Source: Dyella sp. C11 (GTDB lineage: Bacteria > Pseudomonadota > Gammaproteobacteria > Xanthomonadales > Rhodanobacteraceae). From it: a DNA stretch of 64,000 nucleotides. The notes under the pieces are model-generated. The model made no database searches. It saw only the letters and a list, made by a program, of their open reading frames with translations, and had not been told where the DNA came from. Within the stretch, counting starts at the first letter, position 1. Each line of letters opens with the position of its first letter. This document shows positions 18,917-21,955 of this stretch, piece after piece. The stretch spans positions 37,111 to 101,110 of the forward strand of contig NZ_QAVX01000019.1 in assembly GCF_003121485.1 (NCBI RefSeq). The letters run 5' to 3'. The position numbers were made by a program, and so were the translations under genes.

Positions 18917-20701
18917 TCAGACGCTGATCAGGCCGTCGTTTTCCATATCGGCAATCACGCGATTGCGGCCGGTGCGCTTGGCGCGATAAAGCGCGGCATC
19001 CGCCTCGCGGCGCAGGCGCGACAGCCCGTAGCCGAAGGTGTCCGTGCAGGCCACGCCAATGCTGGCGGAAAACGTGACGACAACACCTTCTGCCTGCACG
19101 GGCGAGCTTTCGATGGCCGACCTGACGCGACCCGCTACGGCCATGCCCTGCTCGCGCGTGCATTCGGGCAGCAGGATGCCGAATTCCTCGCCGCCCAGCC
19201 GGCCAAACAGGTCGGTCGGCCGCAGCTGGCGCTGGCACAACGCCACCGTATGCCTGAGCACTTCGTCACCGACCGCGTGACCGTGCGTGTCGTTGATCTG
19301 CTTGAAATGATCCAGGTCGATGGAGATCAGGCATGCGCCACCGGCCTTGCGTTCCAGCGAACGCAATACGCGCTCGGCTTCGGTCACGAAATGCTGGTGG
19401 TTGTAGATGCCGGTCAAACCGTCGCGACGGGAAAGCATCTGGAAACGCAGCTGCGAACGCTTGATGCGCAGCAGCCACAAGCCGATGGAAATCACCACCA
19501 CCAGCAATAGCGCGATATATAGCCGACTGGTTTCCACCGCCTTGGTGTCCAGTTGCTGCTGCAGACGGAGAATGCTGTTCTGCTTGCTCAGCCCTTCGGC
19601 TTCCAGTCGCTGCGCCAGCAGGTGCTGCTGCACCGATGCATAGGCGATATTGCGCGCGCTGACGTCGTCGAGATAACCCTTGTCCTGCGCCACGTACTGC
19701 TCGTAATACGCCAGCGCGGCGACAGCATTACCGCGACGCTGTTCAATCTTGTACAGCACCTTGTAGGCATCGCGCAGCCACAAGTTCACGTCGGGCTTGT
19801 CGCTCATGCTGACCACGGCCAGCGCGGCCTTGCGCGCATTGTTGTCGTCACCGAGCCTTTCGTACGCCAGCGCAAACCCCGCCTGTACAGCGCGCTGGTG
19901 ATAGAAATAGCGATTCGCCTCGATGCTGGGAGCGATGCGCGTAAACAATTCCAGCGCCTTCGCGGGCTGGTCTTCGACCATGTACAGGTTGGCCCGAAGC
20001 AATTGCATGGTGTTGGCGAACACCGGCTGCCCGGCAGAAAGGCAGGTGTCGATCGCCTGCGCAAACAGCGGACTGGACGATGCGATGCGATGACTGTCCT
20101 CCAGTGCGCTGACCTGCATGGAGAGCGGATTGCACAGCGATTCCCCGGGAGGAAGGCTGTCCTCCATCATCTTGGCGTACTTCACGCCCAGGTCGTCCTG
20201 GCCGGAAAACGTCATGAGCTGCGACAGGTTGGCCAGCACGGTGAAGCGCGCCAGGTTGTCCTTGATGTTGGGCAGGTCGGACGCCAGCCGATTGGCCAGC
20301 GTAAAAGCATCTTCGTAACGGCCGCTCAGGCCGAGATTGTTCATCAGCAGCGCGGTGGCCTTGGCCGCCAGCGCATTGTCACCGGAATGGTCGATGACAT
20401 CCTGCAGCATGGCGTTGGCCTTGACGGTGTCGCCCTGGAAGGCCGATTGCCACGCGTCGAGGTAACGCAGATGCCACTGCTGCGCCGCTGTAAGCCGGGC
20501 GGCCTGATCGTGGATCTGGGTGAGCATGCGCAGGAACAGCGGATGATCGAGCGTGCGCACGCGCTCGATCTGGTCAAGCGGGTCCAGCGGTTCAGGCGTA
20601 GCGACGTTCGCCGCGCGCACCTGGCCGGCCAGCGCGAACGCGCAGAACACCAGCCCCGCCAAAGCGGGCCCCAGTGTCCTGCAACGCCAGCGATGCAGCA
20701 T
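18917..20701 (-). CDS. Membrane diguanylate cyclase with periplasmic TPR-like sensor
   Basis: A 594-aa protein. A signal peptide (ALAGLVFCAFALAGQVRA) precedes about 370 residues of helical TPR-like repeats with the AYxxLG/LA spacing. One membrane helix (LYIALLLVVVISIGLWLLRIKRS) leads to a cytoplasmic GGDEF domain starting RRDGLTGIYNHQHF. The active site is GGEEF (503-507), and an inhibitory RxxD site (Arg494-Asp497) lies five residues before it, so an active, product-inhibited c-di-GMP synthase is expected. GGAGG lies 5 nt before its ATG, only 11 bp after the borosin precursor stop, so it is very likely co-transcribed with the borosin genes. Confidence 0.9.
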   Translation of the reverse strand: MLHRWRCRTLGPALAGLVFCAFALAGQVRAANVATPEPLDPLDQIERVRTLDHPLFLRMLTQIHDQAARLTAAQQWHLRYLDAWQSAFQGDTVKANAMLQDVIDHSGDNALAAKATALLMNNLGLSGRYEDAFTLANRLASDLPNIKDNLARFTVLANLSQLMTFSGQDDLGVKYAKMMEDSLPPGESLCNPLSMQVSALEDSHRIASSSPLFAQAIDTCLSAGQPVFANTMQLLRANLYMVEDQPAKALELFTRIAPSIEANRYFYHQRAVQAGFALAYERLGDDNNARKAALAVVSMSDKPDVNLWLRDAYKVLYKIEQRRGNAVAALAYYEQYVAQDKGYLDDVSARNIAYASVQQHLLAQRLEAEGLSKQNSILRLQQQLDTKAVETSRLYIALLLVVVISIGLWLLRIKRSQLRFQMLSRRDGLTGIYNHQHFVTEAERVLRSLERKAGGACLISIDLDHFKQINDTHGHAVGDEVLRHTVALCQRQLRPTDLFGRLGGEEFGILLPECTREQGMAVAGRVRSAIESSPVQAEGVVVTFSASIGVACTDTFGYGLSRLRREADAALYRAKRTGRNRVIADMENDGLISV

Positions 20702-20712
20702 GTCGCCTCCGC

Positions 20713-20991
20713 TTAGTCGTGCGACAGCGCCAGACGAACCTCGGCATCAGGTTCCTCTTCGTCCTCGCGCTCGGGTTCGTCCTCGGGAAAGGTCTGCGAG
20801 CTTTGCGGCGACATCATTGGCCGATAGCCGAACTCCTGCGCAAGCCACGCGCTGTCGCCCGACGCCACCGCGGCAAGCAATGCCTCGGAGGCTTCAGCGG
20901 CTTCGAGCGTGCTGGTGAGTTCGTCCGTCGAGGCATGCCGCAGCGTTGCGTCCTGCCCAATGGCCTCCAGCCAATCCATCGTGTCGGTCAT
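20713..20991 (-). CDS. Split-borosin precursor peptide (SonA-like)
   Basis: A 92-aa protein starting MTDTMDWLEA, behind GGGGGA 4 nt from the ATG. Residues 6-58 (WLEAIGQDATLR, then ASEALLAAVASGDSAWLAQEFG) parallel the helical borosin-binding domain of Shewanella SonA as I recall it (FFTQLGQDAQLM, then DEQINAVMTGDMEKLKTL). An acidic linker (PEDEPEREDEEEPD, about 69-82) leads to a short C-terminal core, VRLALSHD. In SonA the core contains LVISH, and the Leu and Ile are alpha-N-methylated; the equivalents here are Leu87 and Leu89. It sits 127 bp downstream of a SonM-like methyltransferase on the same strand and 11 bp before a diguanylate cyclase. Alternatives such as a Nif11-type leader are less likely given the neighbour. 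Confidence 0.82.
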   Translation of the reverse strand: MTDTMDWLEAIGQDATLRHASTDELTSTLEAAEASEALLAAVASGDSAWLAQEFGYRPMMSPQSSQTFPEDEPEREDEEEPDAEVRLALSHD

Positions 20992-21118
20992 ACATCCCCC
21001 TGTGGTGTTGGTGATGCAACAGCATGATGAAACATGATGACGGTCGCCATCGGTTCCTTTCACCACGCCGCCTGCCTGCGGGCCCTCTAAACCCGAGGCG
21101 TGCGGCGATCGCCTTGCT

Positions 21119-21955
21119 TTACGCCGGCACGCCGGCGTTCTCCTGCTCGTCCAGTGCGGCCAGTCTGGCCTGCATGGCGAGGTTGGGTTTCAGACGCTGC
21201 GCCGGCGGCAACACGACCGTTTCCTCGGCGGTCAATTCAATCGACGGCAAGTCACGCAATGCAACGCGGCGAATGCGCGGCTTCTGGATTGGCAACGTGG
21301 CCGCCCGGTAGACGATCACTTCGTGATCGAGCGGGTAGTCCTTGCTGAGTAGATCCACCAGCACCTGCCGATACGCCGGCCCGGTCTGGAAGCGTGCCAG
21401 CGAACGGTCGCCGACCAGTCCCACCTGCCACAGCACCAGGTAGCCAGTGGGATCGATGCGGCGCTCGAACAACAGCAGCTGGCTGGCCTCGAAATGCTGG
21501 CAGCCGAAGCGGCCCGGATCGATGCCCAGATCGGCATAGAGGCAGTCCTCGGCAGAAATGCCAGGCTCCATGTGCGCCGCATAACCTTCGGCGCGGGCGA
21601 TCTCGATGACCTTGTGCGGCGACCACGCAAAGATGCCGGGATGCCCGTAAAACACGCCGCAAACGCGTTTGCCGGCGCGCACCTCGGTCATCATCAGCTC
21701 GACCCACTGCTGGTAGGTCGTAAACCGCGACTTGCCTTCGCGGTAGTACGACTGAAGGCTGCGGACGTCCGGATGCATGCGCTGCAGCCACATTTCCACG
21801 ATGCCATCGGAAAGCCCGGCGAAAACCACATCCGCCTGCATGATGTGACTGCGCGCCAGCGGCGTGAGATGCGAACCCAGGGTCATGCCCAAACCGACGC
21901 AGGCGAGGCTGCCCTGGCTGGCACGGCTCGGCATGGGGGTCGTAGGCATCGTCAT
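21119..21955 (-). CDS. Borosin peptide-backbone alpha-N-methyltransferase (SonM-like)
   Basis: A 278-aa tetrapyrrole-methylase-fold enzyme. The class III SAM-binding fold is seen in GSLACVGLGMTLGSHLTPLA, VFYGHPGIFA (101-110) and MEPGISAEDCLYADLGIDPG (129-148). The segment YYREGKSRFTTYQQW gives Arg77 and Tyr81, and YGHPG gives Tyr103; these line up with the Arg/Tyr/Tyr set that drives amide N-methylation in OphMA and SonM. The C-terminal YPLDHEVIVYRAATLPIQKPRI also matches SonM. No precursor is fused to its C-terminus, so it belongs to the split type. True cobalamin/siroheme methylases lack the YxxxGKxRxxTY motif. The start at 21955 is the best of several nearby ATGs; none has a strong ribosome binding site. 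Confidence 0.88.
   Translation of the reverse strand: MTMPTTPMPSRASQGSLACVGLGMTLGSHLTPLARSHIMQADVVFAGLSDGIVEMWLQRMHPDVRSLQSYYREGKSRFTTYQQWVELMMTEVRAGKRVCGVFYGHPGIFAWSPHKVIEIARAEGYAAHMEPGISAEDCLYADLGIDPGRFGCQHFEASQLLLFERRIDPTGYLVLWQVGLVGDRSLARFQTGPAYRQVLVDLLSKDYPLDHEVIVYRAATLPIQKPRIRRVALRDLPSIELTAEETVVLPPAQRLKPNLAMQARLAALDEQENAGVPA

Follow-up and report, generated by a model that had tools for sequence, protein, structure and literature searches.

Type IV split borosins are known systems, and their purpose was open as of 2021 because, according to the available text of PMC8429565, no such pathway had by then been tied to a final natural product. What such a system might do is the question raised by a locus of Dyella sp. 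C11, which lies in the stretch of 64,000 nucleotides analyzed here (the window). An initial annotation of the window identified at this locus an alpha-N-methyltransferase with a separate precursor peptide, within an interval (20713-21955) that ends short of the third gene in the row. It missed both this gene, a diguanylate cyclase that recurs at related loci, and a second split-borosin locus in the host genome. We propose that the three genes (18917-21955, minus strand) form a methylated-peptide/c-di-GMP signalling module, the product of which is the likely ligand of the tetratricopeptide-like (TPR) sensor of the cyclase, a reading to which we give a probability of roughly one half. The features of the locus are as follows.

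21119..21955 (-), SonM-type alpha-N-methyltransferase, 278 aa (phmmer against the PDB, Pfam TP_methylase, conserved active-site residues)
20713..20991 (-), precursor protein, 92 aa, no Pfam or NCBIfam family (protein search, five-helix model, Foldseek SonA chains)
20827..20991 (-), leader/borosin-binding domain, precursor residues 1-55 (invariant columns and model helices)
20785..20817 (-), predicted core, precursor residues 59-69, MMSPQSSQTFP (ungapped register with SonA, column tables)
20716..20784 (-), acidic tail, precursor residues 70-92 (acidic tails in cyclase-adjacent precursors of the host's family)
20702..20712 (-), 11-nt gap from the precursor stop to the cyclase ATG, containing GGAGG (sequence)
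18917..20701 (-), predicted TPR-transmembrane-GGDEF diguanylate cyclase, 594 aa (Pfam GGDEF 5.5e-41; model pLDDT 92.3; homologs at other loci)
19667..20584 (-), helical-repeat (TPR-like) sensor, cyclase residues about 40-345 (model and alignment)
19469..19522 (-), predicted transmembrane segment, cyclase residues about 394-411 (sequence, hydrophobic stretch)
18959..19426 (-), GGDEF domain with intact GGEEF and RxxD (sequence, Pfam)

Results

The methyltransferase and its precursor

In a phmmer search against the PDB, SonM matched the 278-aa enzyme at E=2.5e-77 over enzyme residues 15-266, with 49% identity across the aligned stretch, OphMA-type enzymes matched at about 1e-48, and all 25 matches were SonM or OphMA-type borosin enzymes. 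The resemblance to Shewanella SonM in the original description is real, and the borosin motifs quoted at that time are present in the ORF (21119-21955, minus strand). Because the SonM alignment already covers residues 15-266 of 278, there is no space for a fused clasp and core, and the enzyme is a discrete methyltransferase of the SonM type. Six of the seven SonM active-site residues compared, which are those named in PMC8429565, are retained (Y58, R67, Y71, F99, E146 and W166 in SonM numbering), while Q178 is replaced by R188, and 111 of the 160 enzymes aligned likewise have R at this site. Pfam assigns the protein to the TP_methylase superfamily only, a membership that it would share with a cobalamin or siroheme methylase standing beside unrelated neighbors, and grouping with those enzymes had been named beforehand as a result that would count against a borosin. 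That identity is contradicted by the NCBIfam scores, of which the highest is 35.8 bits (cut-off 525) and which are also far below the cut-offs for the other five tetrapyrrole models listed, by the PDB matches and by the active-site residues, and its probability is negligible. On the same evidence the original assignment of the enzyme stands.

The precursor gene is on the same strand and starts 127 nt past the stop codon of the enzyme, giving the separately encoded adjacent precursor of a type IV split borosin. No curated family in Pfam or NCBIfam matched the 92-aa protein, and 29 proteins, the window's own copy among them, were found at E<=1e-3, where the genus-named matches are Dyella. These matches, with their conserved N-terminal half, indicate that the ORF is a real gene, as the initial annotation had it. 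All 22 invariant columns of a 24-row alignment fall within residues 8-55. An AlphaFold model from 54 sequences, which is of moderate confidence (mean pLDDT 68.7), contains five helices (2-13, 15-19, 22-31, 36-44 and 47-53) and nothing regular afterwards, and a Foldseek search of the PDB with this model gave 16 rows, of which 12, including the top ranks, are SonA chains and one is dbOphMA, the best E value being weak (0.3) and the ranking consistent. With the model at this pLDDT and the match at this E value, the protein has the five-helix borosin-binding leader of type IV split borosins, in keeping with the SonA-like helical N-terminus originally described. In addition, an iterated profile built from host-family precursors reaches the Shewanella precursors.

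Precursor and SonA numbering runs ungapped between the shared GQDA (12-15) and GD (45-46), so that Q63 and S65 align with L63 and I65 of SonA, the two residues at which SonA is methylated (PMC8429565). The would-be methylation segment, or core, is accordingly predicted at about residues 59-69, and a recurring post-leader block of the precursors occupies approximately residues 59-70, reading roughly P-Q-x-[ST]-Q-x-P-G-H-E in many members of the host's family. The short hydrophobic core that had been placed at the C-terminus was not borne out, as LALSHD is private to the window's sequence among the 24 aligned and the segment that aligns with SonA is MMSPQSSQTFP. By eye the precursor has no signal peptide, although the cyclase sensor is predicted to be periplasmic. 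The SonM match, the active site, the precursor helices, the Foldseek ranking and the iterated profile together give good support for a type IV (split) borosin system in which methyltransferase and SonA-like precursor are encoded separately.

The third gene encodes a predicted membrane-bound diguanylate cyclase

The 594-aa protein has a signal-like helix (residues 12-31), a helical-repeat region (41-345) in which TPR matches are weak and below the Pfam cut-off, a hydrophobic stretch (about 394-411) and then a GGDEF domain that carries GGEEF. With this domain and its intact signature the protein qualifies by sequence as a diguanylate cyclase, and it is predicted to be a membrane-bound enzyme that makes c-di-GMP. 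A hydrophobic stretch precedes the GGDEF domain in 131 of the 132 cyclase homologs tested, and a simple N-terminal hydrophobicity cut was passed by only 88 of the 132. Two sensor residues, C190 and C220, do not vary across 43 aligned sequences; both fall in the part predicted to be periplasmic, and this Cys pair, the signal-like helix and the transmembrane segment suggest that the sensor faces the periplasm. The host genome has 21 places that match the cyclase, yet only two include the sensor, and both are beside borosin precursors, one in the window and one at the second split-borosin locus. The latter, on another contig (L008:5790-9459), has a methyltransferase, two precursors and a TPR-GGDEF gene in a row, and the segments that follow the leaders of its precursors read FHVQMAP and VCFQTTP, unlike that of the window.

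Recurrence and rearrangement of the three-gene row

A total of 157 methyltransferase loci were compared, consisting of the window, L008, 80 loci hand-picked from the host-family list, 60 from broader lists and all 15 that were named. A full-length sensor-GGDEF homolog on the methyltransferase strand was present in 136 of these, and in four more it was cut by a contig end or frame-broken, leaving 17 loci without such a cyclase. By group, the homolog was found in 80/85 loci of the family, 42/50 of the order, 1/7 of the class and 13/15 of the named Shewanella, Alteromonas and Neptunicella loci, where the other two are broken. In Shewanella, a TPR-GGDEF gene directly follows SonA in 13 of 13 loci, with the frame broken in two. 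A precursor was not recognized in 16 of the 157 loci, eight of which have the cyclase. At three host-family loci (L140, L141 and L128) the sensor cyclase is missing and the precursors found with the methyltransferase lack long acidic tails, and at L196:3829-5463(-) a 545-aa ORF with two methyltransferase matches follows a small precursor, also with no cyclase. The borosin system had been thought rare, which does not hold for the host's family: of 197 genomes, 128 have the methyltransferase, 121 the precursor and 124 the sensor, with enzyme and sensor together in 123, enzyme only in five (one genus, distant copies), sensor only in one and neither in 68.

The commonest gene order is methyltransferase-precursor-cyclase (85 loci), and precursor-cyclase-methyltransferase is found in 11. 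The methyltransferase may be before or after the other genes or fused to the cyclase, while the order of precursor then cyclase is mostly constant, L209 having the methyltransferase between the two. For 135 of 165 precursors the cyclase starts between -60 and 400 nt downstream, with a median gap of 16 nt and 99 gaps no longer than 30 nt, and at six loci (L118, L127, L133, L134, L139 and L147) precursor-cyclase units are repeated behind a single methyltransferase. No other part of the row is as stable as the pair of precursor and cyclase. Among 18 cyclase loci without a nearby methyltransferase (17 picked from the host-family cyclase list and L260 from the precursor list), a clear precursor stands in front of the cyclase in eight, L260 included, a degenerate or partial one in two and none in eight.

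At four loci the precursor is followed by one ORF that combines a TPR-like part, GGDEF and methyltransferase, as confirmed by Pfam, with the methyltransferase located after the end of the GGDEF domain. A protein search for this fused form, the length window of which shuts out stand-alone enzymes, gave 306 matches; all of the 120 matches listed carry both TP_methylase and GGDEF, and the names among them include Luteimonas, Pseudoxanthomonas and Rubrivivax. No fourth neighbor of at least 110 aa recurs, the best candidate being present in at most 14 of the 157 loci, where its occurrences are scattered or reflect synteny within a genus. In Alteromonas antoniana (L242:6564-7865(+)), a pepsin-like aspartic protease, recognized by eye from its DTGSS motif, lies upstream of the methyltransferase and is a possible leader-cleaving enzyme.

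Variation among precursors and co-variation with the sensor

In the host's family, at least six acidic residues follow the core in 82 of the 89 precursors next to a cyclase and in 4 of the 17 that are not. The Shewanella precursors are without a long acidic tail, and the link between tail and cyclase is therefore clade-specific. At L106:4530-8954, seven tandem precursors lie behind one methyltransferase and the acidic tail is confined to the last of them, the one adjacent to the cyclase, while in L134, L147 and L131 proline runs occupy the precursor tails in place of acidic residues. Some precursors have repeated core-like units, with three xVFAA repeats at L220:5506-5814(-) and two CLLVP repeats at L115:4740-5297(+), and perhaps these would give several products from one precursor.

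Co-variation was assessed by partial Mantel correlation of segment distance matrices, each conditioned on the other segments, at 54 host-family loci with one unit and with the core taken as residues 56-72. The core tracked the sensor (r=0.39, p=0.001) and none of the other segments (GGDEF -0.05, linker -0.04, methyltransferase -0.07). The leader tracked the methyltransferase (0.34), as expected for a binding domain, and it also tracked the sensor (0.33), so that the signal extends beyond the core. When thinned to 21 distant loci, the core-sensor correlation was 0.22 (p=0.013), bearing in mind that partial Mantel significance can be inflated by phylogeny and that the sensor is more variable than the control segments. 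The co-variation of core and sensor is support for a signalling module, not proof of one.

Discussion

A signalling role for the locus is suggested by gene order, homologies, the intact active-site and GGEEF motifs, recurrence, the fusions and the core-sensor co-variation. In the mechanism proposed, the methyltransferase would N-methylate the precursor core (residues about 59-69), the leader would be removed and the methylated product would then bind the TPR sensor as its likely ligand, changing the output of the GGDEF domain and setting the level of c-di-GMP, where activation and repression are both possible. We infer that methylation and c-di-GMP synthesis take place in Dyella sp. C11. As no fourth gene of at least 110 aa recurs, passage of the peptide may rely on general export or on N-methylation, which confers membrane permeability (PMC8429565).

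Several observations count against this mechanism. The core is polar (QSSQT), while the borosin cores tested, as described in the available text of PMC11285071, are mostly hydrophobic. The cyclase and a recognized precursor are each lacking at some methyltransferase loci (17 and 16 of 157, respectively), eight of the 18 methyltransferase-free cyclase loci have no precursor, L209 breaks the gene order, the acidic-tail link is restricted to one clade, and a precursor without a visible signal peptide would have to serve a sensor predicted to be periplasmic.

The same loci could be read as the source of an ordinary split-borosin natural product with a role outside the pathway, with the cyclase regulating its production or simply co-inherited as a passenger. 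Split borosins are classed among RiPP natural-product pathways (PMC8429565, available text), the loci that lack a cyclase fit such a role, and multi-precursor arrays such as the seven copies at L106 resemble product diversification. Yet a passenger does not readily account for cyclase-methyltransferase fusions, for a precursor-cyclase adjacency that holds across families and is repeated in units, for precursor-cyclase pairs without a local methyltransferase (8 of 18 loci) or for a core that co-varies with the sensor, and we consider this explanation rather unlikely. Alternatively, no mature peptide is released and the uncleaved precursor is itself a methylated regulator, a partner protein that attaches to the cyclase on its cytoplasmic face. 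This would agree with the lack of a recurring protease or exporter gene of at least 110 aa, with a precursor that has no visible signal peptide, with fusions that put the methyltransferase behind the end of the GGDEF domain and with the co-variation of leader and sensor, and operon or complex partners of cyclases are known in RcbA-RcbB (PMC12282931, available text) and, by its entry title, SiaC-SiaD. Such a regulator is an unlikely explanation, however, in that the core tracks the predicted periplasmic sensor and not the GGDEF domain or the linker. Shewasin A reportedly cuts a borosin precursor, which also speaks against an uncleaved form.

Known systems resemble parts of the proposed signalling module. 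SonM-SonA of Shewanella oneidensis, a type IV split borosin (PMC8429565), likewise has a discrete methyltransferase, with the same key active-site residues but one, and a separate precursor with a five-helix leader in the same register, and its Shewanella relatives have the TPR-GGDEF gene after SonA. The Dyella precursor differs in its polar QSSQT, where SonA has the methylated L63/I65, and in its acidic tail. In the fused fungal borosins OphMA and dbOphMA the methyltransferase domain is homologous to the Dyella enzyme, but methyltransferase and core are one protein (PMC8429565), whereas Dyella has a separate gene for each and a linked cyclase gene, which in some relatives is fused. In Vibrio vulnificus, a TPR-GGDEF cyclase is repressed by its own TPR domain and relieved by its operon partner (RcbA-RcbB; PMC12282931, available text). 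An operon partner that tunes a TPR-GGDEF cyclase may be taken as a mechanistic precedent without methylation, with the differences that RcbB is predicted to be cytoplasmic and that its partner, too, is a TPR protein. Neither 'diguanylate' nor 'GGDEF' appears in the main text of the SonM paper (PMC8429565), and 'methyltransferase' occurs 0 times in that of the RcbA-RcbB paper (PMC12282931). A literature search that covered key subscription borosin papers, two borosin mining papers included, without their full text found no paper on both borosins and c-di-GMP. As far as searched, therefore, the cyclase is an unreported partner of type IV split borosins.

A broader proposal, which we hold tentatively and at somewhat less than an even chance, is that type IV split borosins in general, SonM-SonA included, are a signalling system and not an antibiotic-like pathway, in which the methylated peptides would be dedicated ligands of TPR-cyclases and constitute the first RiPP-to-c-di-GMP circuit. 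The recurring and sometimes fused cyclase offers a concrete and cheap test of split-borosin function in a laboratory strain of Shewanella. If the proposal is true, RiPP chemistry would be joined to the control of lifestyle by c-di-GMP, and the TPR-cyclases would gain a class of ligand.
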